Below are positions 6,645-64,000 of a DNA stretch of 64,000 bases, in pieces. How positions within the stretch are numbered: position 1 is the stretch's first letter; every line of letters begins with the position of its first letter. A model generated the notes under the pieces. The model made no database searches. It was given only the letters and a program-made list of their open reading frames with translations, and had not been told where the DNA came from. A program made the translations under genes and the position numbers. The DNA lies in NCBI GenBank assembly GCA_033032865.1, contig JAWHQI010000013.1, positions 5,394,001 to 5,458,000 on the forward strand, written 5' to 3'. The DNA is from Dactylorhiza incarnata (lineage: Eukaryota > Streptophyta > Magnoliopsida > Asparagales > Orchidaceae).

Positions 6645-6826
6645 AGATCTTTTCACTATAATCAGATCTTACAACTCAGGTTCACACAGAACCTTACAAA
6701 GCTCAGACTTTACAAGTCCTACAAACTCAGATCTTCAATAAGATCCTACAAAAATTCAGGTTCACCAAGAACCCTACCAACTCAGATCGATCACTAGATC
6801 CTACAGCTCAGACTCACAAAGAGTCC
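6645..6826 (-). repeat. tandem mini-hairpin array in Copia A LTR
   Basis: Seven units of about 25 bp share the frame CTCAG / stem / short loop / stem / CCTACAAA. The stems differ between units but pair: AGATCT/AGATCT, AGGTTC/GAACCT, GACTT/AAGTC, GATCTT/AAGATC, GGTTC/GAACC, GATC/GATC, GACTC/GAGTC, with loops of 3-13 bases. The array is downstream of the TATA-like site, so it should lie in the transcribed leader. Confidence 0.8.
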
Positions 6827-7399
6827 TACAAAGTAATACAGAGATGTTGTTGTAGAAGAGAAGATTTCAGAAATGAAGGCTTGAATCACAGATCTTCTTC
6901 TTCTTCTTGTAGCAGTAAGCCCAAAGATCTTGTGGATCAATGAACCTTTCTTTAGAATCTTCTGTAGATCTTTACAGCATAACAACAATGAAGATTCTTC
7001 TTTTTGTTGATTCTTTTCTTTCTCTCTTCAGGAAATATGAGTGAGAATAAAGCTTGAGAGAATTACTGAGCAAGTGTATTGCTGCAGATAAAATTATCTT
7101 CTTTTATATGCTCTGCAATTTTGCATAAAACCCCTTATTGATTATTCCATAATCAATTTCCCGTTTGAACTCGTATTGCAGAATTGGCAATTCTTTATTA
7201 TAATTACTAGCCTTTCTTGGAACTTGCAGAATATAGAAATAATAAATCTCTTTCTTAAATACTGTGTAACGACTATATTCTGTAGAGAATATATCATTTG
7301 CTGCTCCTTGATTTGTGCGCAAGATAGAAGGCGTGCACATTCCCTGAATATCAATTTCCAAGAAAGTCTGTGCATTAAATGTTGCTTTGTAATCTGTCA

Positions 7400-7985: not shown

Positions 7986-8152
7986 ACTTAGTTAATTTTC
8001 AATACTTTTATCGATTACATACCGATGATGTAGATTTGATGCATCTGTCATAAAATAAACTTAAACACAACATCAAAGACAAACTAGCTTATCTATACTT
8101 ATGTTCCTACTTCAAATCTAGAGACATTGAAGGCACAATACCCAACAACATC

Positions 8153-15677: not shown

Positions 15678-17138
15678 TGAAAGTGCACAGTGTGCCTCTG
15701 AGAGGGGGGTGAATAGAGATTTAAAATATTTCTATCCTAACTGTGTAAATAATAAAACAAACTAAGGAGTTATGCTCAAACAAAATCACAGACAGAATAA
15801 TATACAACAGGAAATAAAATGCTGAAGAAAAGAAATGGTATAACACAGAAAAGCACAACACAAACACAAGAGATTTTATAGAGCTTCCCCTAAATGTGGG
15901 TAGTCCTCTCTTCTACCACCTGGTAGGAATGCACCACCTGTGCCTGAGTCTATTGATAAGGAGACTCTTGAACCAAAGATCTTTTGATAAGGAGATCTTG
16001 AACCGCAGATCTTTTGATAAGGAGATCTAACACCAAAGATCTTTTGATAAGGAGATATTGAACCACAGATCTTTCGGTAAGGAGATCTTGAACCAATTGA
16101 ATCCTTTGAAAGAGGGATTCTAAAAACTCATTTACAGGTGAAGAGAAAATGAAGGAGGAAGTGAAAGAAAGAAGGAGAATTCTGTTCTCAGAGTTCTGTG
16201 AAGCCTTGTGTTTCCAATTTCTCTTTTCTGGATCTTGTGAACAATGAATCCTTGCTTTTGATTGAGATGTTTTGCAAGGATTATGATGCTTCAGATCCTA
16301 TCTATTTTCTTCAATTCAAAACTGGTTGTTGTATAATAGTGATGAGAAGCAGCCTTTGTTCTTCTGATCTGAGAGAGAGAGAGAGAGTAGATCTTCTATT
16401 TTTTTTCTTCTAGGGTTCTAGCAGGAAGAAGAAGAAGAAGAAGGCAACCCTAAATGACAGCCGTGAGAAATTTTAATAAATGCTGTGTATTTCTCTATGC
16501 AATCTTCTTATTTATTGTCCCTCTATTTTGTTTAAATTCCTTTCTCTCTGCATCGAGTTCTCTTTCTCTCTTATCGACGCAGCTTTGATTTCTTGTAAGA
16601 GCAGCTTCGAATTCATTCTTGCTCTGATTGAACTCTGCTTGTCGACGTTGCGTTGAAACCTTATCGTCGTAACCGTCGAGTTGAAGGCTTGACTCAGAAC
16701 CTCATTATCTGCTTCGAAATGTAGTTGACGTTGCGTCGACTTTAGATGGCTTCGACAAATACTTCCTTCTGCATTGAGTTGATGTAGAAGCCGCATCGAC
16801 TTCTCATGATACTTCGACATGACCATGGCCTCTACGTCAAAGTCCTTTCGACGTAGCGTTGAGTTTAATTACTTTGACAGAAGGTTGAGTTTCTTGGACT
16901 TCTAGTCTAAGTAGCATCGACATCCATTCGATGTTGCGTCGATTTCTATTCGACGCAAAAGATAACTTAACCCAAATACTGGTTGTCTCGAACTTATCTT
17001 GTCACCTTAAGTTGAGAGAGATATCCTAAGACATCTAATGACCACATTACCCTCACTATACAATGGGTAATTCAACCTAAGATATAAATCACTTCTTAGA
17101 TAATTTGTTAAGTTAAATCAAAGGAGTTTTTCCCAACA
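15678..17138 (-). repeat. 3' LTR of Copia C
   Basis: On plus it runs TGAAAGTGCACAG to CCCAACA, 1461 bp. Compared with the other LTR (1709 bp) and with B, a block of about 250 bp corresponding to 25675-25925 is missing near 16545. It carries the hairpin array (15911-16120), a GA microsatellite near 16376 and the CGTCGA-rich block (16550-16980). Confidence 0.93.
15911..16120 (-). repeat. mini-hairpin array in Copia C 3' LTR
   Basis: Units of about 31 bp: stem, TTTGATAAGG-type loop, stem, then TTGAACCA spacer. Stems: GAGTCT/AGACTC, several AGATCT/AGATCT, and GAATCC/GGATTC with loop TTTGAAAGAG. A CTACCA/TGGTAG hairpin precedes it. The other LTR has the same array at 25054-25263. Confidence 0.75.
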
Positions 17139-17324: not shown

Positions 17325-18843
17325 TATACTTCCTTCCTTTCAGAAAAGTAGATAAGTCCTCATAGACCTTTCTGAATTTTCTTTCCACATACTTGAATTT
17401 TGCAGGAGTTTCCTTCTCTGGATTCTTTTGTATTCTTTCATGACCTTTGAATAGCTTCTCCAGGTCACTTTCTATTTTAGGGGAAACATCTTTTAAAGTG
17501 AAACCCAGCCAAGAACTTTTGTTGTCAACAGGTTTATGACTTCCAACTCTAGACCATCTGACTCTGAGTACCCATCAGGATTTGGTACAAGAAAGGTTGA
17601 TTGAGGTTTACCAGAGACTGAAGCAGACTTGAACAGTATCTTTTTCTACTTCGCAGGAAGTTGTTCTCCTTTCATTTTCTTCTGAGGTGGCTCCTCTGTA
17701 TCCTCTGAAATACATCCAATACCCCTTTTTTGAAGATGGCCTATTTCCTCCAACATCTTAGCTTGAGGATATTTTGTAACATAGTCAGTGGGGGTCAAAC
17801 AGGGAGGTTTTGTTGGGGAATGCTTTTGCTAGCTCCTCTTGTTCAACAACTTCTTTTCCTCTTTGCAGAATATCAATAAACCTCTTTCTCTTTTCCTCAA
17901 TTTCTTTTTGAACTGCTTCATACTCATATATGTCTCTATCACCAATGTCCTCTAAAGCTTTGTAGAGCTTTGGATCATTGTGGGTTTTCATTGAATTCAT
18001 TGTGACTTCAATCTTCTCATATTTTTTTGATAGGATTTATCTTTCTTGTATTCCTTTCTTTCCTCTTTTAAATACCTTTCCCAAATAGGTATCTTCCCTC
18101 TGCCCCCACTTCCTCTTCATCTATATGGAGGTCTTCCCCTGAAGGCATGTGTTGGAAGAATTGGTTTGAGAATTGGAGCAGGTGGAGATGGAAGCTGAGT
18201 TGGAGGTGGAGATGGAAGTTGTGCTGAAGGTGGAAATTGAGCTGAAGGTGACAACTAATCTGGAGCCTGATCAACCACCTTGACTGGAGAAGGTGTTGTT
18301 GAGGAATCTTCAGAAGACACCCTGAATGCAAGTGCATCAGGGATAGATGGCTCAGTGTCTTCATGGAATTCTTGTAGAGTGTTGAGGTAGACCTGATCAT
18401 TTGAAAATAGAGAAGACTCCCCCTGAATCGAGGACTCCCCCTGTGTTGAGAGCAGAATCCTTGGAGGGGTTGACTCCCCCTGAGTTGCAGAATCTTAAAT
18501 ATGTAGCTTGGAAGAAATAACTGGCTCCCCTTATAAAGGAAAGAGGAATTGCTGTTGTGTACACTGAGTCTTCAGGAAGCTGCCTGTTGATACATTTCTC
18601 CCCCTGTTTTTTATCATTGAAAAAAGATATAAAGACATATGCAGGCACAATAGCCAGTCTCAATTCCGCATCAATGGCCTTGATTTCTGATGAAAGATAT
18701 TGCAACCTTCTGTGTTGGCCGCGTAGTTTGCGATAAAATTCCTTGGAGAAGTCAAGATATAGAGAGCTAAACTTTGATAACATTATTTTGAGAGCAAGAT
18801 TGACTGCTTCAATAACATTTTGTTGAAGCGACGAAGATGCCAT
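17325..18843 (-). pseudogene. extra ORF after pol, Copia C
   Basis: Start placed at MASSSLQQNVIEAVN (18843), after a long CGTCGA-rich leader. N-terminal part is predicted helical (LDFSKEFYRKLRGQHRRL, SSEIKAIDAEL); then a Pro/Ser-rich linker with repeated CAGGGGGAG codons, an RGG-like patch, a Lys/Glu-rich helix (EYEAVQKEIEEKRKRFIDIL), and a C-terminal FVYERKF-like end (KYVERKFRKVYEDLSTFLKGRK). Frameshifts near 18480, 18060 and 17780. B has the same protein, confirming the family trait. No known domain recognised; function unknown. Confidence 0.7.
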
Positions 18844-24810: not shown

Positions 24811-26519
24811 TGAAAGTGCACATTGTGCCTCTGAGAATCCTCTAGAGGGGGGTGAATAGAGATTTAAAATATTTCTATCCTAATTGTGTAAACAATAAAA
24901 CACACTAAGGAGTTATGTTCAAACAAAATCACAGGCCGAATAATATAGTGCAGGAAATAAAATGCTGAAGAAAAGAATTGGGACAACACAAAAAATAACA
25001 ACACGAACACAAGAGATTTTATAGAGGTTCCCCTAAATCTGGGTAGTCCTCTCTTCTACCACCTAGTAGGAATGCACCACCTATGCCTGAATCTTTTGAT
25101 AAGGAGACTCTTGAACCAAAGATCATTTAATAAGGAGATCTTGAACCAGAGATCTTTTGATAAGGAGATCTTGAACCAAAGATCTTTTGATAAGGAGATC
25201 TTGAACCACAGATATTTTGGTAAGGAGAACTTGAACCAACTAAATCCTTTGAAAGAGGGATTCTAAAAACTTTTTTACAGGTGAAGAGAAAATGGAGGAA
25301 GTGAAAGAAAGATGGAGAATTCTGTTCTCAGAATTCTGTGAAGCCTTGTGCTTCCAATTTCTCTTTTCTAGATCTTGTGAATAATCAATGCTTGCTTTTG
25401 ATTGAGATGTTTTGTAAGGATTATGATGCTTCAGATCCTATCTGTTTTCTTCAATTCAAAACTATTTGCTGCATAGTAGTGATCAGAAGCAGCCTTTGTT
25501 CTTCTGATCTGAGAGAGAGAGAGAGCAGATCTTCTGTTTTTCTTTTCCTTTAGGGTTCCAAAAGGAAGAAGAAGAAGAAGGCAACCCTAAATGACAGCCG
25601 TGAGAAATTGTAATAAGTGTTGCGTGTTTCTCTCTGCAATCTTCTTATTTATTGTCCCTCTATTTGGTTTGAATTCCTTTCCTCTTCTAGAATGTCCTGA
25701 AAAGGCAAATCATTGGACAATAGCTCTTCCTTTCCTCTTTTAATTCTCGACCCTTCCACCAACTGTAATGTCCCATTCCAAGAAACCTTTTTTGTCTTCT
25801 TGAATGCTCCATTCCATTTGAGGCAATAAGTGAGTCGTTGGAGAACGGTCTTGAGCACTGTGGGCCATGAGAGAGAGAGATTCAAAATGACAGCTGAAAA
25901 GGTTTCCTTTTTAGACTGTATTTGACGTAGCGACGAGTTCTCTTTCTCTCTTATCGATGCACCTTCGATTTCTTGTAAGAGAAGCTTCGAATTCATCTTG
26001 ATCTGATTGAAATTTGCTTGTCGACGTTGCGTCAAAACCTTATCGACGTAATTGTCGAGTTGAAGGCTTGACTCAGAACCTTATTATCTGCGTCGAAATG
26101 TAGTTGACGTTGCGTCGACTTTAGATGGCTTCGATAAATACTTTCTTCTGCGTTGAGTTGATGTAGAAGCTGCGTCGACTTCTCATGATACTTCGACATG
26201 ACCATGGCCTCTACATTGATATCCTTTTGACATAACGTTGAGTTGAATTACTTTGACAGAAGGTTGAGTTGCTTGGACTTCTAGTCTTAGTAGCATTGAC
26301 ATCCATTCGATGTTGTGTCGATTTCTATTCGACGCAAAAGATAACTTAACCCAAATACTGCTTGTCTTGAACTTATCTTGTCACCCTAAGTTGAGAGAGA
26401 TATCCTAAGACATCTAATTACCACATTACCCTCACTATACAATGGGAAATTCAACCTAAGAGATAAAATCACTTTTTTAGATAATTTGTTAAGTTAAATC
26501 AAAAGAGTTTTTCCCAACA
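24811..26519 (-). repeat. 5' LTR of Copia C
   Basis: 1709 bp, TGAAAGTGCACATTG to CCCAACA on plus. It is the fuller LTR of the pair, with hairpin array 25054-25263, GA microsatellite near 25510, and CGTCGA motifs 25920-26340. GAAAG duplicate follows. Confidence 0.93.
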
Positions 26520-31211: not shown

Positions 31212-31661
31212 AGGGAGTCCATCACTACATGGGCCGATATGGCAAAAAAAATTCTCACTAAATATTTCCCGCCTGCAAAGACCGCCAAATTACGAACAGA
31301 TATTGCATCATTTATGCAAATCAACTCGGAGACTCTCTATGATACATGGGAGCACTTCAAGGAGCTTTTGCGTAGATGCCCTCACCACGCACTTCCCACT
31401 TGGCAACAAGTGCAAATCTTTTATAATGGCTTGAATTTCCTAACTAAGCAAATGATTGATGCGGCTGTCGGGGGTACATTAAATAAAAAGACCCCGAAGG
31501 CCGCTCAAGAGCTTTTTGAGGAAATGGCCGTGGATTCTTATCAATGGAACTTGCCCCAAGCACGGCCTAATAAGCCCGTCAGAATTTTTGAAATAGACAC
31601 TACTTATAATTTGGCTTTACAAGTTGAGCGCTTAACAAAGCAAGTGGAGGAGATGTCTGTC
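31212..31661 (+). pseudogene. gag: Gypsy F gag, part 2
   Basis: Resumes with TWADMAKKILTKYFPPAKTAKL, then ETLYDTWEHFKELLRRCPHH, WQQVQIFYNGLN, MIDAAVGGTLNKKTP and EEMAVDSYQWN, a textbook Athila gag. It ends at [13 protein letters not shown], where sequence of Copia D begins. Confidence 0.87.
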
Positions 31662-34423
31662 CCTGATGTACTTTTCCTGTCTTCCTTGCACCCTGCATAA
31701 TCTGCATCTGAATAGCCAGTTAGTTCACAACCATCGTTCCTAGGGTACCATAGGCCAAGATTTGATGTACCCTTTAGGTATCTTAAGATTCTCTTGGCAG
31801 AGACATGATGAGATTCCATAGGGTTCACCTGATATCTAGCACAGACACATGTAGCAAATATTATGTCAGGCCTACTTGCAGTTAGATAGAGTAGGGATCC
31901 AATCATGCATCTGTCCTTGGTTTCATCAAAGGGTTTGCCCTTCTCATCCTTGTCCAGAGACACATTGGTTCTCATTGGAGTCTTCATTGAAGAAGCACTC
32001 TCCAATCCAAATTTCTTGACTAGCTCCCTAGCGAACTTTGTCTGGGAGATGAATATACCATCTTCAGATTGTTTCACCTGGAGACCTAGGAAGTATTTGA
32101 TCTCACCCATACTGCTCATCTCAAACTTTCCCTGCATCAAGTTGGCAAACTTTTTGCAGAGATTGTTATCTGTAGAGCAAAAGATGATGTCATCCACATA
32201 GATCTGCACTAGCAAGATCTTGCCCTTTACTTCCCTTAGGAACAATGTCTTATCAATCTTTCCCCTTGAGAACTTGTTCTCAATTAGAAAGCTTGATAGG
32301 GTCTCATACCAGGCACTAGGAGCCTGCTTTAGGCCATAAAGAGCTTTTCTAAGAAAATAAACGTAATCAGGATGAGTGGAATCTACAAAACCTGACGGTT
32401 GCTCTGCATATACCTCCTCTTTGAGGTCACCATTTAGAAAGGCTGACTTCACATCCATCTGATAGACCTTGAATCCTTGGTATGATGCATAGGCTAGAAA
32501 CAGTCTTATTGCTTCCAGTCTGGCTACTAGAGCAAATGTCTGATCAAAATCTATCCCTTCATCTTGTCTGTAGCCTTTTGCCACTAGCCTTGCTTTATTC
32601 TTGGTGATGATTCCATTTTCATCCAACTTGTTTCTATAGACCCATTTAGTTCCTATGATGTTCTGTCCTTAGGGTCTTGGAACCAGTTTCCAAACCTTGC
32701 ATCTTTTAAACTGGTTCAGCTCCTCCTGCATTGCTGCAATCCAAAATGGATCCTGATTTGCTTCCTCAAATTTCTTGGGTTCAATTTGAGAGAGAAAACT
32801 CAGGTACAATGCTTCATTTGTAGCTCTGCTCCTTGTCAGCACACCTTGGTTGACATTTCCTATTATCTGCTCTTGGGGATGATCTCTTACTTGTCTCAAG
32901 GTAGTTGGGAGTATACTGGGTACTTCTGCATCAGCAACTTCTTCAGGTTGCACTTCTTCAGCCATTTCTTAGCTTTCTGCAGGTTCTTCCTCGATTTCAA
33001 CTGTCACTGACTGATTCTCATTTCTGAATGAAGTATCAGCATTGGTTTTAATGGATAGCTTCTCTATTCTCTCCACTGTACCTGCATTCACTAGAGAACT
33101 AGACCATCCCTTATGTATAAGGCTAGTCTCATCAAATACCACATGAACAGATTCTTCCACTGCTTGGTTATTGATGTTGTACACTCTATAGGCCTTGCTA
33201 TGAGAGCTGTAGCCAACAAAAATACCCTCACTGCTTTTCTCAGCAAACTTAGTTAGCTTGGATTTCCCATTATTAAGGACATAGCATTTGCTTCCAAAGA
33301 TCCTAAAGTAGGATAAGGTTGATTTTCTGCCCTTCATTAACTCATAGGGAGTTTTCTTGTGGTTTTTGATGATGGAAGCCCTGTTTATCACATGACAAGC
33401 TGTATTGACAGCCTCTGCCCAGAAGTATTCTGGTAGGGAGGAGTCACTTAGCATTGTCCTACTAGCTTCTATCAAGATTCTGTTCTTCCTTTCAGCAACC
33501 CCATTATGTTGAGGAGTTCTGGGTGAGGAGAATTCTTGGGAGATACCTAGTTCTTGGCAGAATTCTGTCATGGCCCCAGACTAAAATTCTTTCCCATGGT
33601 CACTTCTGAGTTTGACCACAGTACAGTCCATCTCATTCTGGATCTGCCTAACAAAAATTTTCAAGATATCTAGGATATCTGACTTCTTTTTGAGGAAGAA
33701 TACTCAAGTGAACCTTGAATAGTCATCAACAACTACAAGTGTGTAGGTCTTCCCTCCTAAGCTATGAACTGACATAGGACCAAACAAATCCAGGTGCAGT
33801 AGAAATAGGCACCTAGTGGACTCTTTGTTAAATATGCTTTTAAAGATGGTCCTAGTCTGCTTTCCAAGTTGGCAAGCTTGACATGGACCATCTTTGATGC
33901 ACTTAATGTCAGGTCCATTTCTAACTAGGCTTTGTGAGAAAAGCTTGTCTATTGTCTTATAGTTGATGTGTGCAAGTCTCTTGTGCCATTGAACACAGAG
34001 AGCCTCTTTATCATCAGCCACAAGACATATGGGCATGGAAGAATTTGTATTGAGAAAATTTAAACAATAAATATTCTCACTCCTAGTGCCAGTTAAGGTA
34101 GCCTCAGAATCTAAGGACTTCTTAATTAGACACTTGTCCTTGTGGAAGGTAATAACAAAGGCTAAGTCACAAAGTTGACTTATGCTTATGAGATTGTGTT
34201 TCAATCCCTCCACATAAGCCACCTTTGTGATTGTAACTAACCCATTTGAGATGCTTCCATAGCCCCTGGTCACTCCCTTTTCCGAACCTCCAAAAATCAT
34301 TGTTGGTCCATTATCCACAGGGGTGAACACTTTCAAGTACCTTCTGACTCCAGTCATGTGTCTGGAGCAGCCACTGTCCAAATACCAAATTGGAGATTGG
34401 TTGGCATTTGGACCTACCTGCAA
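31662..34423 (-). pseudogene. pol: Copia D pol (RNase H truncated)
   Basis: Protease WYLDSGCSRHMTG (near 34385). Integrase: WHKRLAHINY, CQACQLGKQ, LDLFGPMSV, RTPQHNGVAERKNR, FWAEAVNTA; stops near 33704 and 33584. [28 protein letters not shown], both catalytic motifs intact. RNase [21 protein letters not shown], then cut. The 32626-31662 frame is open over all of the RT palm and connection. Confidence 0.92.
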
Positions 34424-34429
34424 GATAAA

Positions 34430-36562
34430 TTACTTCCCCTTAGGTACCCAAAATGGATTGGGTCCTCGGTTTCTGTTAGGTTGATATAAGGGAACACTAA
34501 ACCACGAGGGGTTCTGCACTCTCTTTGCATTGAGCCATGTTGGATTGAACCAACAGTCCAAGGCAATGTGGCTTACTTTCCCACAACACCAGCATTCATA
34601 TCTGTTGTATCTTCTCTTCTGCTTCACCATCTGAGTGGGGTGGCAGTGCTGATGAGCAGAGGAAAATCCTTCTTGCCTAACAGATCTTGGATGAACCTCA
34701 TATGTGTGAGTTTGGGGTGGAATCGGTCTCACCACATTTTGATTCACCTTCTTGGGAACAGGCTTTGTAGGAACAGCCATTTCCTTACTTTTGATTGTTG
34801 TTGCTGCAGGTTTGTGGGCTGAAGGACTTGACACCAGCACCTTCTTGTAGGAAGGTCTAGCTTCAGAATCTTTGCCCTTAACTGTCTCTTGATTAAAACC
34901 AATACCAGCTCTGAACTGTCCAGAGAAGGTGTCAATGATAGGCAGGATAGTTTTGGGCATTGACAAGCTGGATGTCAGTTTCTTCTCAGCCAACAGCATT
35001 TCCTCAAGGTCCTTAATGACCTTGTTCTTCTGTCCTAACTCAGCATTTTTAAGCCTTATGGCTTCCTTGAATTTGTTCACTTCCTTGCTCATAGCAGCCA
35101 GCTTCTCAGCTGTCTCCTGGAGCTCAGATTGAACAGGCTTCAAGAAATCTAACTCCTTAGTCTGGACTTTGAGGAGTTTCTTACAGCCCTTGAAGGCTTT
35201 CCACAAGGCTTTGTATTACCTTATTAGTTCAGATTCAACTTCATACTGGGATCTTGAGGTTGTTCTATTGGCAGCAGACACATCCTCATCATCATGCAGA
35301 TAGGGAGGTTCTGTGATTTACCTTTCCAGGAGAGTTGTCATCCCGGTTGCCTTCATTGATGACCATCAATCCAATAAGTGCCTCGTCCTCAGTACTAGAG
35401 GAGCTTGAGTCAGAGTCACTCAATGTTCTCGTCTTCTAAGCCACGAACCCTTTTTCAGAGTTCCTCTTGCTCCTCGAGCTTCTTCTTTCTTCATGGTTCC
35501 TTGACTCCTTCTTCTTAGAGGGACAGTCCACAGCCATGTGACCTGTTTTGCTGTAGGAATAGCAAACATTATTATTTAAATCATGTCTACTAGAGTTGGA
35601 TCTGTACCTGTCCTCCCTGGGAGCTTTGGATCTGTCACGATAGTCAGATCTTCTGGAGCTTGAGGAGGAACTTCTGTTGTTGTCCCTCCTCCTTCTGTAT
35701 AGTAACTTTCTGAACTATTTTGAGAGGAGTGCCACCTCTCTATCAGTGTCATCAGAATCAGAGGATCTGGCTTCTGATTCCTCACTGTTCTCAGATCTAT
35801 TTTGAGATGCAGAGCTCTTGCTCTTGGATCTTCTGGTGCTCTCAGCCTTTAGAGCCACAGATCTCTCTTTTGAGCTCACTCTTGAGCTTTCTTCTTCATC
35901 CTTCCTGGTGTTGAGCTGAAGTTCATGAGACAACAGCTTTCCGTACAGATTTTTGGGCTCCATGATGCCCAGGTGACCCATCTCTCTAATGGCATAGATC
36001 TTGATGTCCCATTCTTTTGTAAGTGATCTGAGAAACTTGCCGTTTAGATCATAGTTGGTGAACTCTCTTTCGTAGTTTCTCAGACCATTCACAATCTTGA
36101 AAAATCTCTCATAGCAGTTGGAGATTGTTTCATTATTGCCCTGCTTGAAGGCCTCATACTCTTGGTTGAGGAGGGATTTTCTATCATCCCTTACCTCTTC
36201 AGTACCCTCCATATATACGATCAGGGAGTCCACATCTCCTTGGCCGTTTTGTAGTGAATTAGGTTTTGGAGGGTTGAATCATCTACAACACTTACGATAA
36301 CATTTTGTGCCCTCTTATCCAGGCCTGCCAATGCTAGCTCGTCCTTGGTCATGTCTTCATATTTCTTTATCACCTTCCGTGTTGGATCAATGGTGGAAGC
36401 GGTTGTGGGGATAAAAGGACCCTGTTGGACTGTCAGATAGATTTTTGGATCGTCCGCTTTCATGAACAGCCTAATTCTTTCCTTCCAGATAGGAAAGTTC
36501 TCCTTTGTGCAGATCGGAAGTTTCATAGATCTCATCTCCCGATTTTGATCTCCACCGGCCAT
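34430..36562 (-). pseudogene. gag: Copia D gag
   Basis: Start MAGGDQNREMRSMKLP. Capsid: FPIWKERIRLFMKADDPK, YKTAKEMW, LLNQEYEAF, VNGLRNYEREFTNYDLNGKF; a frameshift near 36225. A long Arg/Ser region precedes knuckle 1, CYSYSKTGHMAVDC (second Cys changed to Tyr). After stops near 35437 and 35320 a coiled coil (35206-34930) follows, a basic linker, then knuckle 2, CWCCGKVSHIALDC, and the WVPKGK junction to protease. Confidence 0.85.
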
Positions 36563-36617
36563 GGTGAGTCGTTCCTCGATCTAGATCAGTCGGTTAAATC
36601 TTCCTTTGATCAACCTC

Positions 36618-36629
36618 CCTCTGATACCA
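36618..36629 (-). other. primer binding site of Copia D
   Basis: TGGTATCAGAGG on minus, two bases from the LTR. Confidence 0.92.
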
Positions 36630-36875
36630 CTTGTTAGTAATGGAACGTTCACCTAGAGGGGGGGGGGGGGGGGTGTTAGGTGATCTTGGTTCTTTTTGAT
36701 AAAATAGTGTGAGTTAAGAGTATTTAAGCACAGCAGTAAAATATCACACACAAAAGGCACAACAGACGACACAAGATCTATAGAGGTTCCTCAAGACATG
36801 GTGTCTTGAGTAGTCCTCTTTCCCTCTACGCCTACCCAGCAGTGTGCTAGGCTCGACAAACTCCGCCAAATCTTC

Positions 36876-37206
36876 AGGCCCTCAAGCCTTACAACACGGA
36901 CCCGCAAGTCCCAACAGCCTAGGCCCGCAAGCCCCTACTGCCCCCGAGCCCGCAAGCTTGACACTCAGGCCCTCAAGCCCTACAACACGGACCCGCAAGT
37001 CCCAACAGCCTAGGCCCGCAAGCCCCTACTGCCCCTGAGCCCGCAAGCTCGACAAATCGCACCCGCAAGTGCACTGCCCTGGCCCTCAAGCCTCACAGCT
37101 CTCCAGCCCACAAGCTAGACGATGTCGGACCCGCAAGTCCACTACCCTGGCCCTCAAGCCTCACAGCTCTCCAGCCCTCAAGCTAGACAAATAGGCCCTC
37201 AAGCCT
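36876..37206 (-). repeat. array of about 15 covarying mini-hairpins in Copia D LTR
   Basis: Each unit is a 3-4 bp stem closing a six-base CCGCAA, CCTCAA or CCACAA loop (plus strand). Stems: AGGC/GCCT, GGAC/GTCC, GGC/GCC, GAGC/GCTC, GCAC/GTGC, AGC/GCT. Stem changes are paired between the two sides, while the loop stays. Units are 20-26 bp apart. Nothing here is coding. Confidence 0.85.
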
Positions 37207-37684
37207 TTACAAAGATTACAGTAAAAAGAAACTGTTACTTCTGCCGGATGAAGATCGACAACTTTAACCTGATGAAGATTGGCTTCTTGAGGTTGAAGAA
37301 GATGCTTCTTGATCTGGAGATTCAGCACTGGATCTTCTTCAGCCTTCACTTCTTTTGCCTGGTGTTGATCGGCTACTTTTCAGTTGATGATGATGACTGA
37401 TTCTTCAGAGAGCACTTGATTTTTGCTCTCTACTTGATCTTCTTCTTCTCCACCGATAATACTATTCTATTGAAGTGTAGCTGCGGGATACTTTCTCGTT
37501 TCTTTTCTTTTTCTTCGAAGATTTCTTTTCTAGGGCATCACTGTTCCCTTTTATAGGACAGATGAGCCGCATAACAGTAACATGTGATGTCCTTTAATGT
37601 CAGACGCCCATTCCATAAGAGCACGCGCTGATCGGACAATCAGGCGGCTACATTAAATGCTGACAGCGTGTCCGCAATATTTAA

Positions 37685-38510
37685 ATCTGTCTCGACGATA
37701 TTTCTATCGTTATGACGTCATGGACAATATCTCGACGACAGAACTTTGTAGAGGCCTTGAACTTAGATACACTTTCAATTCTTCTAGCTTCTTCTTCTGA
37801 TGCTGGTATCTCGTCGATACGAGACAATTTGCAGCTACTATATATACGACGATATGCTATCTCTGACTGTGTCGTCGTGATCTTCCTTCTTGTAGTTTGT
37901 CGTCGTAATCATGTTGTTCTCTCGACGACATGAGTGATACTATGTCGACAGATCATACTTCACCAATTGCTTGTCTTCAACTGTCCTTCTTTAGTCTTCT
38001 CGACGACATTCCTTCTTTACAACGATGTTCAACGCCATCAGTCATGCTTAGCCTTTTCAGCGACAAGGCTTCTGAACGACGAGATCTGTTCTTCTCGACG
38101 ACAAAGCTACTTTATTAATGTCGACGATACTGCATCTTCTCGACGACATTTCTTCCTTAGTCTTCATTCTTCTCTGCGTTCGACGAACGTGCCAACATCT
38201 CAGCTGTTTCTTCTGTCTCGTCTCAGAGTTTGATGAACTGTCTTCTGCGTTCGACTAACGCGCCAGATCTCTTTTATCTGCAGCTCCTTTCCCGTCTCAG
38301 CGGATCCGCTGAGACAGTGAGCTCGTCCCAACAGATTTGACCCCTCGTCTCAGCGGTCGACGTTCTTCCTTCTGAGTTCGACGATCTTGCCGAGTCTCAG
38401 CGGTCGACGAACACGCTACTTCTCAGGAGTTGCTTTGCTCATCATTACGACGATAAGCGTGCTTTGTTGACGATATCTCCTATTCTTCTCGACGACATAT
38501 CTTTAACTTC
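37685..38510 (-). repeat. TCGACGACA motif block in U3 of Copia D LTR
   Basis: At least nine near-copies of TCGACGACA/TACGACGATA (for example 37731, 37921, 37999, 38095, 38138, 38493) spread over 800 bp, with CAGCGGTCGACG variants near 38350-38410. Confidence 0.7.
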
Positions 38511-38609
38511 CTGAGATCATAAGCTAGAGAAGTAATCAAATACAAAGTGAAGTTTTCTTGACTTGGTGACTTCTTCAAATCAGGAATCATGTGGGCAAGA
38601 TTCCCAACA

Positions 38610-39911
38610 CAACTCTGCCAAGGAAATCTGGGAATCTCTCTTCAGATTAGTTGAAGGCAGCTCTGATGAGAGAAAAGACAAAAAGTCACTTCTCATATCC
38701 CAATATGAGAACTTCAAGAAAAAGGCTGATGAAAGCATTATAGAAATGTATGACAGATTCAGCCTCATCATCAATGAGCTGAGAGGGCTTAACAAAGAAA
38801 TCTCTTTGACAAAGATTAATGACAAGCTCCTCATGTGCTTTCCAAGCACATGGGACTCTAGAATCTAGGCTATTAGAGATTCTAGATGCCTTAGAGAGAT
38901 CATAACAGATGCTCTACTGGGAAAGCTCAAATCCTATGAGCTTTTACTGAAGAGCAAGGCTGAGTCAGAAGCCCAGGAAAGAATATCAACTCCTAAGGAA
39001 AGGACTCCTGCATTAAAGACCGCTGAAGCAGAGTCCTCCACCACTGAAGAAGAAATGTTCAACCTCTTGGCCAAAAGATTCAAGAGGTGGGCCTGGACAG
39101 AGGACCCCAAAAGAAAAGAAAGGAGTTCAAGCAAGCCAAGGTATGATAAAAATCCTAAACAGGAGATTGTTTGTTTTTCATGCAGAAAAAAGCAGAGGAA
39201 GGAGCTCAAGAAGCAATCCTTCGGGAGGAAGGACAAGAAAAGAGGAAAATGTTTCATTGCAGAAACCTGGAGTGATTCAAACTCTGAATTAAGCTCCTCT
39301 ACATCTGATGATGATGAAGAAGGTGGACCAGAAGAAGCCTGCCTAATGGGCCTGAAAGTCTCCTCTGCTGAGAATGAGGTAACAGTTTTTGATGACCTTG
39401 ATTTTTCATCAAGAGATTTTAAGAATTGTTTTAAAGAATTTTGTCAAGATTTTATTAACAACCAAAAGGAACGTAAAACAATCAGATCAGAACTAGAAGA
39501 ACTCAAGAGAGATAATCAGTACTCAGTTAACTATGATCTGAGAAATGAGTTTTATGGAAAAAAGAATTAAATATACTAGATAATAAAAATTCAGAGTTAA
39601 AGAAAGAAATTACAAAGGCTAAAGCCTTTGAGGACTCCCTCAATGGAATGAGTCAAAAGATTAAAGATATCTCACAAAATCTCTTCAAGAGATAAAATCA
39701 TCTTGATCAGGAATCACAACCATCTGCTAGCACTCAAATCCCTAGCAAACATGTTTGGGAAAATCTTGTAGCATCATTTAGGTCTAGACCTAATAATATT
39801 CTAGAATCAAGTGAAGATCACAATGATAACAACCCTAATAAAGTCACCATATTTAATAGGGCAAACATTAGTGATCAACCAGGAATCTTAGGCAAACATT
39901 CCTTAGGAAAT
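38610..39911 (+). pseudogene. gag: Copia B gag, first part
   Basis: Begins inside gag at NSAKEIWESLFRLVEGSSDE, continues LLISQYENFKKKADESI, YDRFSLIINELRGLNKEI, LLMCFPSTWDSRI, then a TAG at 38866 (Trp in C). The first knuckle starts VCFSCRK and is cut by a deletion joining it to KQRKELKKQSF. An acidic stretch and a coiled coil (39390-39660) follow. The CACTA element interrupts the part before knuckle 2. Confidence 0.87.
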
Positions 39912-48743: not shown

Positions 48744-49922
48744 ATGACGTCTCCCCAAGACATTGCTGATGCGATTGATCAAAGCCATGGAGACCCTTCT
48801 TTCACACTTCAGCTCCCTCTATCTTGACTTCTCTAAAGTATATTACAGGAAGATCAGTGCTCAACATCGAAGGCTGCAGTCTCTCAATGTTGAAATCAAG
48901 GACCTAGATGACAGAGTAAGGTCTGAGAGTATCTCTGCTGGTGCTTTTATATCCTTATTAAATGATATACAACAGGGGGAGAAATATGTCAGCAGGTCTC
49001 CTCAAGGATGTGTGTACAAATCTCTCCATGACTCAGTGTACACCACATCATTGACTCTCTTATTTGTTTCTGAAGGGGAGCCAACCATCACATCTAGGCT
49101 GCAACTTGAAAGCTCAACAACTCAGGGGGAGTCAACCCCTTCAAGGATCCTGCCACCGGCACAGGGGGAGTCCTCAATTCAGGGGGAGATCCCTTTAATC
49201 TCAGATGATCAGGTTTACTTAAAGACTCTGCAGGAGTTCCAGGTAGACATTGAAAGACCCATTCTTGATGCACTTGCATTCATGGTGCCTTCTGAAGATT
49301 CTACAACAACACCTTCCCCAATCAAGGTGGTTGAGCAGGATTTTGTCTCATCTGATCCTGCTCCAGCTCAGCTTCCACCCCCAGTTCAGCCTCCATCTTC
49401 ACCTACCCAAATTCAAACAGCTAAACCAATTCTTCCAACACCTGTCTTCAGAGGAAGATCTCCATATAGAGGAAGAGGGGGCAGAGGGAAGCTACCTATT
49501 TGGGAAAGGTACTCAAAAGAGGAAAGAAAGGAATACAAGAAAAATAAATCCTATCACAAAAAAATATGAGAGGATTGAATTCCCAGAGAATACAATGAAA
49601 ATCTACACTGATCCAAAGCTCTACAAAACCTTAGAGGACATTGGTGATAGAGACAAATATGAGTATGAAGCAGCTCAAAAGGAAATTGAGGAAAAGAGAA
49701 AAAAGTTTATTGATATTCTGCAGAGAGGAAAAGAAGTTGTTGAACAAGAGGAGTTGGCAAAAGCAATCCCCATCAAAACCTCCTTGTTTGTCCCCACTGA
49801 GTACATTACAAAAAATCCCCAAGCTAAGATGTTGGAGGAAATAGGCCAACTTCACAGAAGGGGTGTTGGATGTATTCCAGAGGATACAGAGGAGCCAACT
49901 CAGAAGACAAAGAAAGGAGAAC
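48744..49922 (+). pseudogene. extra ORF after pol, Copia B, first part
   Basis: MTSPQDIADAI, a frameshift near 48775, then helical LYLDFSKVYYRKISAQHRRL and LNVEIKDLDDRVRSESI, a Ser/Pro linker with four CAGGGGGAG tracts (48973-49190), ALAFMVPSEDSTTTPSPIKV, a PPPVQPPSSPTQ stretch, RGG-like GRSPYRGRGGRGK, and after a shift near 49520 a Lys/Glu helix YEYEAAQKEIEEKRKKFIDI. E2 interrupts it; the C-terminus is at 59513. Confidence 0.78.
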
Positions 49923-51143
49923 TGTTGGATCGATAGACGCCCTTAGAGGGGGGGGGGGGGGGGGGGTGAATAAGGGAATAAAAATTCTTTTTAATAATGT
50001 TATGAAAATTTCTAAATTGTTTTATAATAGGAGAAAGGCAAAATAACAATTTAGCTAAATTAAGAGAATATCATAATTTCCAAGTTTAGAAATAAGTACT
50101 AAATTGTTTTATGATGAAAGAGATTGAAATAAACAATTTAGATAAAGTAATTAAAATTGAAAACTTAGTAACCAATATTTTAAAGATTATGTCAAAGGAG
50201 AAAAATCAAGTAAACACAAATAAAGACATGATTGTATTTATATAAAATGTGTTTACATAAATTTGATTTCAATATCGCTAGAAATCGGAGGCGTACAAAT
50301 GTAAATATCTTTTCCTTTTCTATACTGACTTGTATCCCCACAAACCGGTTGGCTTTAGTCTATCCTTCCCCGGATAAGGCCTCAAGCCGCTCTAGTCAAT
50401 CCTTCCCCGGATATGGCCTCGAGCACCCCTAGATCTAATCACCTAGAACTAGTCGCCAACACAAGGTGAATTCCTCCTTAAGTCCTACCCAGACCTAGTC
50501 TCCAACACAAGGCGAATTAACTAAACGATTACAAAAAGTTTGAAATGAAAATAAAGATAACAATAATAAAAACTCCCTATATGAGATCTCTGAAGATGAG
50601 GATGAAGGATCGATGTAGTATGAGCGAGGTCGAAGCGATCGTCCTTCGGATGTAGCGTGGCGTAGTCCTCCTCCAGAATTCTCCTTAAGCTTTTTGTGGG
50701 AGATCCATCTTCAGCAGCATAACATCAATAGAATTGTGGCACAAGCAATCTATCTGGGATGGATAGCAAAATAGAGAAAGAGTCCATCAATTTATAGAAC
50801 TTGAAGATAGCGTCTGCGGTAGTACGTAGCGCCTGCGGTAGTACGTAGCGCCTGCGGTAGCGTTCGTGTGGAGCGGTTGCGAAACCGTCGGCCGCGTGGC
50901 GCTGTGCACGAACTTGATTTAGCTCCAGGCGGTTGCGCTAGCGCTGGTGGTAGCGCTAGCGCCTGCGTTAACCACTAACGTTGGCGTTAGTGCAATCTTC
51001 CAGATGTTTGAATTCAGCTGCTTTCTACCTGTGGAGTATTGCACCTATAGTTTCTGCACACTATAAATACACGATAAGCAAGATCAAATACAATTTGGGA
51101 TTTGTTATTCTCAAACAAAGGGATGTGACACACATGTCCAACA
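49923..51143 (-). repeat. 3' LTR of E2
   Basis: 1221 bp; on plus TGTTGGATCGATAG to ATGTCCAACA. Includes a 19-G run (49948-49966), hairpin-like TATCC-TTCCCC-GGATA (about 50358), tandem 18-bp units with TAGCGCCTGCGG (50810-50870), AGCGCTAGCG palindromes (50938-50965), and a TATA-like ATTTATA on plus (50790-50796). Confidence 0.92.
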
Positions 51144-56993: not shown

Positions 56994-59507
56994 TGTTGGA
57001 TCGATAGGCGCCCTTAGAGGGGGGGGGGGGGGGTGAATAAGGGAATAAAAATTCTTTTTAATAATGTTATGAAAATTACTAATTTGTTTTATAATAGGAG
57101 AAAGGCAAAACAATAATTTAGCTAAATTAAGAGAATATCATAATTTCCAAGTTTAGAAATAAGTACTAAATTGTTTTATGATGAAAGAGATTGAAATAAA
57201 CAATTTAGATAAAGTAATTAAAATTAAAAACTTAGTAACTAATATTTTAGAGATTATGCCAAAGGAGACAAATCAAGTAAAGACAAATAGAGACATGATT
57301 GTATTTATATAAAAGGTGTTTACATAAATTTGATTTCAATATCGCTAGAAATCGGAGGCGTATAAATGTAAATATCTTTTCCTTTTCTATACTGATTTGT
57401 ATCCCCACAAACCGGTTGGCTTTAGCCTATCCTTCCCCGGATAAGACCTCAAGCCGCTCTAGCCAATCCTTCCCTGGATATGGCCTCGAGCACCCCCTAG
57501 ATCTAATCACCTAGAACTAGTCGCCAACACAAGGTGAATTCCTCCCTAAGTCCTAACAGACCTAGCGCCAACACAAGGGGAATTAACTAAACAATTACAA
57601 AAAATATGAAATGAAAATAAAGATAACAATAATAAAAACTCCATATATGAGATCTCTGAAAATGAGGATGAAGGATCGCTGTAGTATGAGCGAGGTCGAA
57701 GCGATCGTCCTTCAGATGTAGCGTGACGTAGTCCTCCTCCAGAATTCTCCTAAGCTTTTTGTGGGAGATCCATCTTCGGCAGCATAACTGCAATAAAATT
57801 GTGGCACAAGCAATCTATCTGGGATGGATAACAAAAATGAGAAAGAGCCCATCAATTTATAGAACTTGAAGATAGCGCCTGCGATAGTACGTAGCGCCTG
57901 CGGTAGCGTTCGTGTGGAGCGGTTGCGAAACCATCAGCGACGTGGCGCTGTGCACGAACTTGAGCTAGCGTCAGGCGGTAGCGGTAGCGCTAGCGGTAGC
58001 GCTAGTGAAAGTGCACAGTTAACCTCACTAGAATTCTCTAGAGGGGGGGAGTGAATAGAGATTAAAAATACTTTGTGTAATTATATATATATATATGTAA
58101 TAATCACAGATTTAAGCTTCCCACACACCAACAAGAATTAATCAAGTAAAGAAGAAAAATAAGAAGAAAATCACAGCACAACACAAGGAAATATAGTGGT
58201 TCCCCAAACTTTGAGTAGTCCACTCTTCTACCCCCTTGGTAGGAATTCACTAACTTGCACTGAGTCTTTTGATAAGGAGACTCTTAGAACCAGACTGAGT
58301 CTTTTGATAAGGAGACTCTTAGAACCACTACAACTGAATTTTTTTGAAGAGAGATTCTAAAAACTCTTTTACACAGTTTGAAAATGAAATAAGAATAAGA
58401 AGAAGAAGTAGAACAAGTAGAAGAACAGAGATCAATATAAGAAGGAATCTTCTTCCTAGCAAGAAGATTAGAAGCACAAGTATAGTGAATATGATCTCTC
58501 TTCTATAGTGAGAAGGAGATTGTAAGTTTTTCTCTCTTTTGTGAGAGCTTTCAGAATTTGCAGCAGAATGGCTTGAGAAGATGAAGACTTTTTCTTTGCT
58601 GCAGCACACTATCTCTTTTCTCAATTTTCTCACTCTTCACTTGGGAGCTCTTCCCCTTTTTCAAATGTATATGGTGGATCACTCTTCACTTCTTATCATT
58701 CTCTGCCGACCTCCTTCTTATTTATAGCTCTGTTTAAAATATATTGCTAAAAGGGAATAATCAATTAGCAGACACAGAAATAGAAAGAGATAAGAGTTTC
58801 CATAATCAATATTTCTGTAGAAGGAAAAGAACTCATTCTGATTTCAAATAATATCCATAATAATCTTAATCAAATAAGTCAAGAATCAAATAGAAGGAAA
58901 GGTTGATTCAGAACGGCTATAAAAGAATAATATCATTCCATAAAAATTAGATCTACAGAAAGAAGGAAAGAGATCTGGCGTGTTTTTGAATTACTTATAG
59001 ATATCGACGTGCGTTGATTACTATTCGACGTAAACGTCGATTTCATCCTGGATGGACGTCGAGAGGAGAATAAGGAAGGTGCGTCGACAAATGTGCGTCG
59101 ACTTTATCAAATGCGTCGACTAGAAGTCAGAGGTACGTCGACTATGATTACGTCGAGTTCTTCTAAGAGTAACTTCGACTCATTCTGAGAGAAACGTCGA
59201 CTATATTTCGACGTTGCGTCGAATACTATTCGACGCATATTTACTTAGCCTAATTTTTCATACTTAGAATTTATGTTCTACTCAATTCTAGGGGTTAAGA
59301 TAAATCATTTCCCCAACAGCTAGCGCTTCCGTTAACCACTAACGCTGGCGTTAGTGCATTCTTCCAGATGTTTGAATTCAGCTGCTTTCTACCTGTGGAG
59401 TATTGCACATATAGTTCCTGCACACTATAAACACGCGACAAACAAGATCAAATACAATTCGGGATTTGTTATTCTCAAACAAAGGGATGTGACACACATG
59501 TCCAACA
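56994..59507 (-). repeat. 5' LTR of E2, containing a solo Copia LTR
   Basis: Parts 56994-58005 and 59324-59507 (1196 bp) match the other LTR. The middle is an unrelated LTR (58006-59318). The G-run is 15 here versus 19 in the other LTR. Confidence 0.92.
58006..59318 (-). mobile_element. solo LTR of a Copia family related to B/C
   Basis: On plus TGAAAGTGCACAG to TTCCCCAACA, 1313 bp, with GCTAG duplicates (58001-58005 and 59319-59323). It shares the LTR-end motif, GAGTCT/AGACTC hairpins (58228-58350) and a CGTCGA-rich U3 (58990-59245) with B/C but is divergent. No interior: produced by LTR-LTR recombination. Confidence 0.92.
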
Positions 59508-60037: not shown

Positions 60038-61514
60038 TGTTGGGAAAAACCCCTTTGATTTAACTTAACAAATTACCTAAAGTGATTTTATCTCTTAGGA
60101 TTCAATTACCCATTACATAGTGAGGGTAATTTGGTCATTAGATGTCTTAGGATATCACACACAACTTGGGTGTCAAAGACCAGATCAAGACAAGCAGAAT
60201 TTGGGTTAAGTTAACAATTGCGTCGAATAGAAATCGACGCAACATCTGTCGAAGCCATTTGAAGTCGACGCAACATCGACTACAATTCGACGTAGATGAT
60301 GAAGTTCAGAGTCAAGCCTTCCACTCGATGGTTACGTTGATAAGTAATCGACGCAACATCGACAGTAGAGCTCAATCAGAGCAAGAATGAATTCGAAGCT
60401 GCTTTTACAAGAACTTGAAGGTGCGTCGATAAGAGAGAAAGAGAAATCGACGCAACGTCGAATATAGTCTGAAAAGGAAATTTTCATCTATCATTTTGGA
60501 ACTCTCTCTCAAGGCCCATAATACTGAAGACCGTTCTACAACGGCTCATTTATTGCCTAGAATAGAAAGAAGCAATAAAGAAGACAACAAAAGCTTTCTT
60601 GGAAAGGATCAAGACAGTTGGTAGACGGGTCGAGAACAAATGAGGAAAGGAAGAGAAATTGTCCAGGCCAATACCTTTTCAGCACACTCTAAAAGAGGAA
60701 ACAAATTCAAATTAATGGATGGACAATAAATAAGAAGATCAGAGAGAAGAAACTAGAGCATTCAATACACATTCAAATTCTGTCGATTGGGGTTCTCCTT
60801 CTTGTTCTTCCTCCTGAACCCTAGAAGACAGTGAAGAACAAATACTGCTCTCTCTCAGCACAGTAAAAATAGAAGTCTTATTTGCATCAAAGATCATACA
60901 ACAACCAGATTTGAATAGAAGAAACTGACAGGATCTGAATCTCATAACCTCAGAAATCATCTATATCAAAAGCAAGGGTTCATCTTTAGCAGATCCAGAA
61001 AAGAGAAAATTGAAGCAGAAGGCTTCATCATAATTCTGATAGGAGAATTCATTTCCCTACTTCTTTCTCCTTTCCTTCACTTTTCTCAACAGTAAAAGAG
61101 TTTTAAGAATCCCTCTTCCAAAGGATTTAGTGGTTCAAGATCTACTTATCAAAAGATCTGGTTGGTTCAAGATCTCCTTATCAAAAGATCTGGTTGGTTC
61201 ATGATCTCCTTATCAAAAGATCAGTAGTTCTAAGAGTATCCTTATCAAAAGACTTAAGGCACAGGTGGTAGAAGAGAGGACTACCCATATTTTAGGGAAC
61301 CTCTATAAAATTTTTGTGTTTGTGTTGTGCTTTAAAGTGCTGTCCCAATTTTCTTTCTTAGCATTTTTATTTCCTGCAATAATTATTCTGCCCGTGTGTT
61401 GTTTGTGAGCATAATTCCTTAGTTTGTTTTATTGTCTACACAGTTAGGATAGAAATATTTTAAATCTCTATTCACCCCCCTAGAGGATTCTCAGAGGAAC
61501 ACTATGCACTTTCA
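60038..61514 (+). repeat. 3' LTR of Copia B
   Basis: 1477 bp, TGTTGGGAAAAACC to GCACTTTCA. Holds CGTCGA motifs (60217-60470), a TATA-like ATAAATAAG (60726-60734), hairpin array (61107-61275) and a CCCCCC tract (61477-61482). CTATC follows (61515-61519). Confidence 0.93.
61107..61275 (+). repeat. mini-hairpin array in Copia B LTR
   Basis: Sense units GAATCC/GGATT, AGATCT-ACTTATCAAA-AGATCT, AGATCT-CCTTATCAAA-AGATCT, a decayed GATCT/AGATC and a decayed GAGTAT/AGACTT, spaced by GGTTGGTTCA-type linkers. Confidence 0.7.
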
Positions 61515-62153: not shown

Positions 62154-63173
62154 TGTTGGGTATTGTGCCTTCAATGTCTCTAGATTTGGAGAAGGAACAC
62201 AAATATAGATAAGCTAGTTTGTCTTTGATGTTTTGTTTAAGTTCATTTTATGACATATGCATCAAAGCTACATCATCAGTATGTAATCGATTAAAGTAAT
62301 GAAATTAACTAAGTAAAATATTGTCTTGAGACTTAGCAGAAGAATCGTGGAGAAAAGTATCATATCGTCAAAATAGTTTTGACGATATCGTCTTGAAGAT
62401 TGTAGAAAGTTTATCGTAGAAAAAGCCAAGTTCAGATATCGATGACATCGTCTTGAAGAAAGTTTATCGTGGAGAAAGCTAAGTTCAAAATATCGACGAC
62501 ACCATCTTGAAGAAAGCTTATCGCGGATAAAGCTAAGATGTCTCTACGATGTCGTCTTGAAGAAGAAGTTCAACCTTGAAGGCTAAAAAGATATAACTCC
62601 TTACTTCATAAAGAAAGGTTTATATGAAAAAACATCGACTTGAAGACTTTATATCGTCTGGAAGATCAAGATGATATCGTCTTAAAGAAAGACAGACAAC
62701 CTAAAGAATAATTCTAAGTCCAAATGAAAGTAACATCTCGACGATGTCGTCTAGAAGAAGTGATATCGTTCTGATATTAAATAGAGTCGTGAAGAAGGAA
62801 GAATATCGACGATATCGTCATGAAGTATATATGGCGTATACACGGATCAAGATGACATCGTCTTGAAGGATTAACATCATATTGACAGATTAGAAAGCAG
62901 CATTTAATGCACAGACTTTCTTGGAAATTGATATTCAGGAAATGGGCACGCCGTCTATCTTGCGCACAAATCAAGGAGCAGTAAATGATATATTCTCTAC
63001 AGAATATAGCCGTTACACAGTATTTAAGAAAGAGATTTATTATTTCTATATTCTGCAAGTTCCAAGAAAGACTAGTAATTATAATAAAGAATTGTCAATT
63101 CTGCAATACAATTTCAAACGGGAAATTGATTATGGAATAATCAATAAGGGGTTTTATGCAAAATTGCAGAGCA

Positions 63174-63180
63174 TATAAAA
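63174..63180 (+). promoter_or_regulatory. TATA box of Copia A' LTR
   Basis: TATAAAA in GCATATAAAAGAAG, conserved in A (7102-7109, minus). Confidence 0.6.
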
Positions 63181-63452
63181 GAAGATAATTTTATCTACAA
63201 CAATATACTTGCTTAGTAATTCTCTCAAGCTTTATTCTCACACATATTTCCTAAAGAGAGAAAGAAAAGAATCAACAAAAAGAAGAAGTCTTCATTGCTG
63301 TTGTGCTGTGAAGATCTACAGAAGATTCTAAAGAAAGGATCATTGATCCACAAGATCTTTGGACTTATTGCCACAAGAAGAAGAAGATCTGTGATTCAGG
63401 CCTTCATTTCTGAAGTCTTCTCTTCTACAACAACATCTCTGTATTACATTGT

Positions 63453-63632
63453 AGGACTCTTTGTGAGTCTGAGCTGATAATCTAGTGATAAATCTGAGTT
63501 GGTAGGGTTCTTGTTGAACCTGAGTTTTGGTAGGATCTTGCTGAAGATCTGAGTTTGTAAACTTGTAAAGTCTGAGCTTTGTAAAGTTCTGTGAGAACCT
63601 GAGTTGTAAGATCTGATTATAGTGAAAAAATC
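63453..63632 (+). repeat. mini-hairpin array in Copia A' LTR
   Basis: Sense-strand units GACTC-TTTGT-GAGTC, GGTTC-TTGTT-GAACC, GATCTT-GCTG-AAGATC, ACTT/AAGT, GTTCT-GTG-AGAAC and AGATCT ... AATCT, each followed by CTGAG; the same array as in A. Confidence 0.75.
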
Positions 63633-63840
63633 TAAGTTGGAGAAGTTGTCTAGTCTAACACACTGCTAGATAGATGGGAGGGACGGTGGACTACCTCTAG
63701 ACACATTGTCTAGTTGGGAACCATTATAAATCATTGTGTGTTTTCTGTGATGCTTATGTGCTGTGATTGATAAACTATTAAAAAACAAAGAAATCTGAAA
63801 ACACCTAATCACCCCCTCTAGGTGTAGTTTATAGTTTTCA

Positions 63841-64000
63841 GATGTTGATAATAGCGGCCTCCATGCAGGAAAAATGAAAGTTTTTATTATCCCAAGACCA
63901 AATGAAAAAAATAATATTTGCGTCTCTATCAATATTCACAAGGACGCCTGGAACTTCAACACAACCTATCCATCATTCTTGCAGAAAGAGGAAAGATCAC
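63841..64000 (+). CDS. partial open frame of unknown identity, flanking A'
   Basis: Frame open over all 53 codons to the window edge: DVDNSGLHAGKMKVFIIPRP, NEKNNICVSINIHKDAWNFN, TTYPSFLQKEERS. Composition is protein-like (Trp, Tyr, Pro spread evenly). It starts exactly after the LTR, so the element may have landed in a host exon, or in another element. I do not recognise the family. The start and end are outside. Confidence 0.35.

Follow-up and report, generated by a model that had tools for sequence, protein, structure and literature searches.

The array at the centre of this study, which lies in an LTR of a Copia element of the orchid Dactylorhiza incarnata (contig JAWHQI010000013.1), raises the question of why a tandem series of mini-hairpins keeps its arms complementary while the letters of the arms change. 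We analyzed the window, i.e., the whole stretch of 64,000 nucleotides that holds this LTR, together with its 3.27 Gb source genome (feature coordinates in Table 1). Each unit of the array consists of two complementary arms of about four bases that flank the loop CC(G/T/A)CAA in forward-strand letters. The initial annotation quoted this loop correctly for the forward strand but not for the transcript, which has the reverse complement UUGNGG because the element (hereafter, D) sits on the minus strand. Its count of about 15 mini-hairpins with one loop, about 23 bp apart, was accurate: we counted 15 units with loops starting at 36880, 36902, 36925, 36950, 36971, 36993, 37016, 37041, 37063, 37084, 37108, 37131, 37152, 37176, and 37197 (spacing 21–25 bp), and the stems quoted are all present.

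Based on four-base arms, 52 of 60 positions are Watson-Crick pairs (45/45 at positions 1–3 from the loop), and none of 20,000 re-pairings of arms among the 15 units reached this value (mean 37.1, maximum 49), in agreement with the earlier claim that stem bases change on both sides together. Pair types include G-C, A-T, and C-G at stem position 3 and G-C and A-T at position 2. Arms lengthened to six bases gave a weaker result (60/90 paired; reached by 2 of 20,000 shuffles). The array holds tandem duplications (91-bp period, 2.0 copies at 96% matches; 68-bp period, 2.3 copies at 86% matches), and its 15 units are therefore not 15 independent events. For this reason, identical arms were collapsed to distinct pairs, leaving eight arm pairs with 28 of 32 positions paired (reached by 31 of 20,000 shuffles); with one pair per distinct left arm (n = 6), 15 of 18 positions were paired at positions 2–4 (120 of 20,000). 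The argument that simple tandem duplication would not give paired changes overlooked the duplication that the array does contain. When the window was scanned for stems of at least 5 bp without mismatches and with loops of 3–12, the array did not stand out; its stems are too short for such a scan, and unit-based tests were therefore chosen.

Element D encodes the domains RVT_2, gag_pre-integrs, Pol_BBD, and Retrotran_gag_2, all of which pass Pfam cut-offs, i.e., a Copia-type gag-pol. Its LTR junction (CA/AGTGG/TATCAGAGG, 15/16) agrees with the Sirevirus rule CA/A(T or G)TGG/TATCAGAGC, its C run lies 25 bp from the LTR end (about 21 bp in the Sirevirus criterion), and its TATA box lies near mid-LTR, upstream of the array at sense positions 1404–1734. 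These three traits (junction, poly-C run, and mid-LTR TATA) are given as features of Sireviruses in PMC2829016, and by its sequence D is classified as a Sirevirus-type Copia element. BLAST within the window found no second copy of the D LTR; neither the 3' LTR of D nor the region before it, in which a Sirevirus has multiple PPT octamers, turned up there. The pol frame of D departs from the family sequence at 31604–31650, beside open frames of another element. Elsewhere in the window, post-pol open frames at 48748–49569 (no Pfam match) and 18068–18571 lie where an envelope-like gene may be present in Sireviruses. A search for relatives by reverse transcriptase protein gave pattern hits (one in viral contigs, 39 in genome contigs), none of which was confirmed.

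Table 1 Features of the window discussed in the text
Feature	Position	Strand	Remarks
5' LTR of Copia element D, 1978 bp	36632..38609	minus	sense strand starts TGTTGGGAATC, ends TTACTAACA; boundaries read from sequence
U3 repeats: TGTCGTCGAGA in nine near-copies, with up to 2 mismatches	37690..38497	minus	upstream of TATA
TATA box CTATAAAAG	37548..37556	minus	sense position 1054 (LTR length 1978); the array follows 350 bp downstream
Mini-hairpin array, 15 units, family D	36876..37206	minus	sense loop UUGNGG
Conserved domain directly 3' (sense) of array	36779..36819	minus	AGNGG-ACUAC...GGAA-CCNCUAUA
Poly-C run near LTR end, Sirevirus integrase-signal position	36658..36673	minus	from sequence and the description in PMC2829016
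LTR/PBS junction	36619..36633	minus	sense CA/AGTGG/TATCAGAG
gag-pol remains of element D, several open frames	31604..36278	minus	Retrotran_gag_2, gag_pre-integrs, Pol_BBD, RVT_2
Hairpin string of LTR C1 (LTR 6427-8147)	6645..6835	minus	linker UGAG..GUAGG; limits approximate
Hairpin string of LTR C2 (LTR 62154-63842)	63450..63635	plus	limits approximate
Hairpin string of LTR A1	15943..16123	minus	loop CCTTATCAAA; limits approximate
Hairpin string of LTR A2	25083..25263	minus	limits approximate
Hairpin string of LTR A3	61105..61260	plus	limits approximate
Hairpin string of LTR fragment A4	58255..58357	minus	limits approximate

The array adjoins a short conserved domain, and two more LTR families of the window carry strings of hairpins just before this same domain: family C (two copies), in which the linker is constant and both stems and loops vary, and family A (four copies), which has one loop and stems such as AGATCT, GAGTCT, GAATCC, and TGATCT. 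The linkers of D and A have no common word, those of C-like units include UUGUAG, and GUAGG/CUGAG flanks are common to D-type and C-like units. CFIm loops RNA in a UGUA-dependent manner; this was dropped as an account of the linkers because the word is not common to all families. In a comparable stretch of another LTR pair in the window (50360–50530; about 57445), there are separate short hairpins such as ATCC-TTCCCC-GGAT and GGC-CTCAA-GCC.

The domain pattern TATAG(A/T)GGTTCC..GTAGTCC(A/T)CT has 34,577 exact matches genome-wide (reversed control: 0). The domain ends with CCWCUAUA(A/G), followed by U/G-rich sequence, and among the 81 distinct regions that we fetched with it, 80 have A..T or T..A as the end pair; the domain may therefore form a covarying stem too, beside a putative poly(A) signal. 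These regions, of which two fetched sets lie wholly on one contig (C11), comprise 32 D-type, 23 A-type, 13 C-like, and 13 other regions. Under a wider linker rule, C-like units were also present in eight of the 13 others, leaving five; two of these (L032 and L060) have a string with a constant GGTG/CACC stem, varying loops, and AGATTTTGATCA-like links, and inspection of a third (L014) revealed no hairpin string. D-type and C-like arrays are probably related, because one region (L036) combines the D loop with a C-like linker. Among the regions in which a PBS word was seen, 22 of 23 show CA/A(T/G)TGG (no such word was seen in the other 58, often since little flank was fetched), and 71 of 81 satisfy a loose poly-C rule. 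A genome search with the D array returned 3601 candidates; among the 40 scored, 39 non-window copies were 96–97% identical over 326–331 of 331 bases. The number of units per copy, which the initial annotation had proposed to count, varies from 8 to 21 loops among D-type regions. Hairpin strings are thus general in this genome, across LTR families with different loops, linkers, and stems.

Pairing across copies was counted per unit, because units came out misplaced when the four A copies were aligned with MAFFT; the shuffles leave relatedness in, and the resulting figures are not probabilities. In D-type regions (32 loci, 444 units), Watson-Crick pairing was 81% within units vs. 58% between units of the same locus. 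This count took in those of the 81 regions that had at least six D loops or at least four C-like units, and about 670 nt were scanned per region, so that a small number of the D loops may fall beyond the array. The 71 distinct D-type arm pairs gave 180/284 Watson-Crick positions (shuffled maximum 155 in 2000). A D pattern with four free stem letters had 33,796 genome matches vs. 2843 for the control, and among the 100 matches listed both free pairs were Watson-Crick in 89 (shuffled mean 38.6, maximum 56). C-like units, which were excised by their linkers rather than by their stems (regions with at least three linker-defined units; D-type excluded, nested units dropped), gave 540/640 over 21 loci and 160 units (shuffled maximum 399) and 398/488 for the 122 distinct units (shuffled maximum 262). 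Sliding the partner by 1–3 bases lowered the Watson-Crick share of C-like units from 0.866 to 0.10–0.32; single loci with few units (L059, L069) were not significant on their own.

The pattern of two exact linkers had 1351 matches in the genome (control: 0). Among the 100 listed, 99 were used (one stretch was set aside as two units; a second such stretch, of 24 letters, was kept), with 259/297 Watson-Crick positions at positions 2–4 vs. 40.5% between units, and 178/210 for the 70 distinct units (shuffled maximum 110 in 5000). Position 3 of these 99 units comprises T-A (28), C-G (27), G-C (26), and A-T (9). For family A, 28 distinct arm pairs gave 113/168 (shuffled maximum 107 in 5000), a count that took in some loop-like matches from LTRs of the L032 kind, which are not their hairpin loops. 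Pairing is therefore well above shuffled controls in D-type, C-like, and A-type units and in the genome sample, as expected if stems covary among copies, the point on which the initial annotation had staked its reading. At the level of sequence, arms remain complementary despite changes of letter, whether units are compared inside one copy, among copies, or among families. Given the size of the effect and its recurrence in families with different words, chance or shared descent is a poor account.

The initial annotation had also placed the array in a 5' leader, and this placement is supported by the TATA box upstream of the array and by a sense-only loss of AUG after TATA in D, C1, and C2. From 32 nt past TATA to the LTR end, ATG occurs once in 892 nt in D (10.7 expected), four times in 650 nt in C1 (12.4 expected), and three times in 637 nt in C2 (12.6 expected); in each of the three, all 200 shuffles gave higher counts, and because C1 and C2 are one family, the depletion covers two families. 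ATG is about as frequent as expected in U3 and on the antisense strand of all three. Inside the arrays of D, C, and A, sense ATG was rarer than in any of 20 shuffles (antisense ATG was also low in A), and the pattern used matched no TATA in the A LTRs. AUG depletion fits a ribosome-scanned leader that would include the array. The start of sense AUG depletion after TATA might also serve to mark where LTR transcription begins from sequence alone.

Departures from Watson-Crick pairing were compared between the strands. The ratio of sense to antisense G-U pairs was 45:9 in distinct D-type arms (positions 1–4), 45:9 in distinct C-like units (arms of different units: 0.179:0.116), 13:3 in the genome sample (99 among the matches listed; binomial P = 0.024 vs. 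the cross-unit ratio), and 19:4 for single changes between units alike elsewhere. The cross-unit null covers C-like units and the genome sample, and a strand bias of mutation may contribute to the ratios. Single changes to plain mismatches were also common (16), and three of four two-sided Watson-Crick changes between close units were transversions, which are unable to pass via a G-U pair; these change counts, the 19:4 ratio included, kept only units with at least two of four Watson-Crick pairs and lean towards pairing. A-type units showed no strand preference (11:10). A preference of these departures for transcribed-strand G-U in D-type and C-like units is thus partly demonstrated by the counts.

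Predicted folding favoured the other strand. In ViennaRNA ensembles, unit hairpins of D had a mean of 0.63 for antisense vs. 0.17 for sense (0.80 vs. 0.52 with pairs limited to 30 nt), and those of C-like units 0.47 vs. 0.30. The minimum-energy fold of the D sense strand is not a simple string of hairpins; sense-strand z-scores were −3.3 for D, −2.0 for C1, and −1.6 for A1. We read the better antisense folding as a likely effect of the G/U-rich sense strand, which would have many alternative pairs.

Taken together, we favour the reading, with a probability of about 0.4, that the array is a leader RNA structure under selection, i.e., small stem-loops strung together through short linkers in the part of a Sirevirus-type Copia RNA that follows TATA. 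Each hairpin would expose a word that is constant within the family, either in the loop (D, A) or in the linker (C-like). Three features suggest a platform on which multiple copies of a partner bind: the form persists as letters vary, a word recurs, and differing numbers of units are tolerated. The partner would co-evolve with the family and, because the word differs between families, is more likely to be the element's own Gag, the simplest candidate, than one host factor; bound Gag would mark the genomic RNA for packaging or dimerisation. Short stems would still permit ribosome scanning, and local folding would benefit from the differences in stem between adjacent units. Several results count against this reading: the predicted folding, which on the models used favours antisense rather than sense RNA, and the lack of strand preference in A-type wobbles together with the 16 plain mismatches. 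The flanks common to D-type and C-like units also weaken the argument for a family-specific partner.

Among other explanations, RNA 3'-end formation would place the array in R just upstream of the 3'-LTR poly(A) signal, with hairpins that space or expose U/G-rich linkers (UUGUAG) to recruit the poly(A) machinery. We regard this as unlikely and rank it second to packaging or dimerisation because the array adjoins the widespread CCWCUAUA domain with its U/G-rich sequence; the word UUGUAG within C-like linkers also fits. Presence at the RNA 3' end, which the initial annotation had also suggested, would require a poly(A) site downstream of the array; the poly(A) signal is only putative, and D and A linkers lack a common word. 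Furthermore, Sire LTRs have a very short R according to PMC3601003, and the array would therefore fall in U5, at the 5' end only. Mutational upkeep, in which reverse transcriptase switches template within a short palindrome, so that a change in one arm is carried over to its partner and pairing persists without function, is less likely still. Transversions in two-sided changes, the variable number of units, and the unbiased A-type wobbles are what it would produce, but it predicts no sense G-U preference, contrary to D-type and C-like units, and leaves unexplained why loops and linkers are kept while stems change and why strings recur at the same LTR place in several families; moreover, no inverted loops were noticed in unsystematic inspection.

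A role in avoiding silencing ranks lower again. Stems of 4–6 bp that differ between units would be too short for dicing and, with their varied letters, would offer neither long double strands nor repeated siRNA targets, and in maize Copia elements the structured parts of LTRs are reported to draw small RNAs (PMC10760457). However, the repeated linkers and loops would remain repeated targets, and the simplest way past dicing is to have no structure. We consider it very improbable that the units are DNA-level cis-regulatory repeats, read by dimeric factors as interrupted palindromes in the manner of Sirevirus palindromic boxes, even though dyad symmetry and tandem copies are shared with the RM boxes described in PMC2829016. 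In the array, the arms are the varying part, with all four pair types at one position; the array lies downstream of TATA, while U3 has repeats of its own; and the strand-asymmetric wobble of D-type and C-like units is not a property of double-stranded DNA.

We return to the leader RNA platform, which, if correct, would make the hairpin string an undescribed arrangement in which structure and a short word are selected and the letters of the stem drift. We tentatively propose that many Sirevirus-type families of this genome use it as a countable multivalent scaffold for Gag or for RNA condensing. Plant genomes hold large numbers of Sireviruses, and, to our knowledge, how they recognise their own RNA is not known. 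Adjacent units differ as natural compensatory mutants of one another, so that covariation can be followed within one molecule as a handle on RNA recognition, and structure also offers a means of recognizing related LTRs that are too diverged in sequence to align.

Regarding known systems, an Rfam search of window positions 36600–38620 returned no matches at E ≤ 1 on either strand. Our literature search, which covered the maize Sirevirus palindrome study of 2016 (Genome Research) through papers that cite it, found no such array downstream of TATA. The RM boxes of Sireviruses, including the palindromes of maize Opie and Ji, resemble the array in having many short dyad-symmetric units in a Sirevirus-type Copia LTR, but in PMC2829016 they lie upstream of TATA and have one palindrome per element with a CGG-CCG core, whereas the array lies downstream and has several different stems; identity with an RM box was rejected on both features. 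The U3 repeats sit where RM boxes would, nine in D and eight in C1; those of C1 (7400–7920) are near-copies of the palindrome GACGATATCGTC (2 mismatches allowed), upstream of TATA as are the Sirevirus boxes in that paper.

Stem-loops are also mentioned for long R regions (PMC3601003). The likeness to the array is a structure possibly within R and beside a putative poly(A) signal; the difference is that the array has repeated units in varying number. In retroviral R regions, stem-loops occur near the poly(A) signal. Packaging and dimerisation signals of retroviruses, Ty1, and BARE comprise a few unique stem-loops in the leader, whereas the array is a tandem string of short, mutually different predicted hairpins. 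The likeness is that the array, too, would form stem-loops where these retroelement signals have theirs, in the 5' leader RNA before the PBS (PMC3735527).
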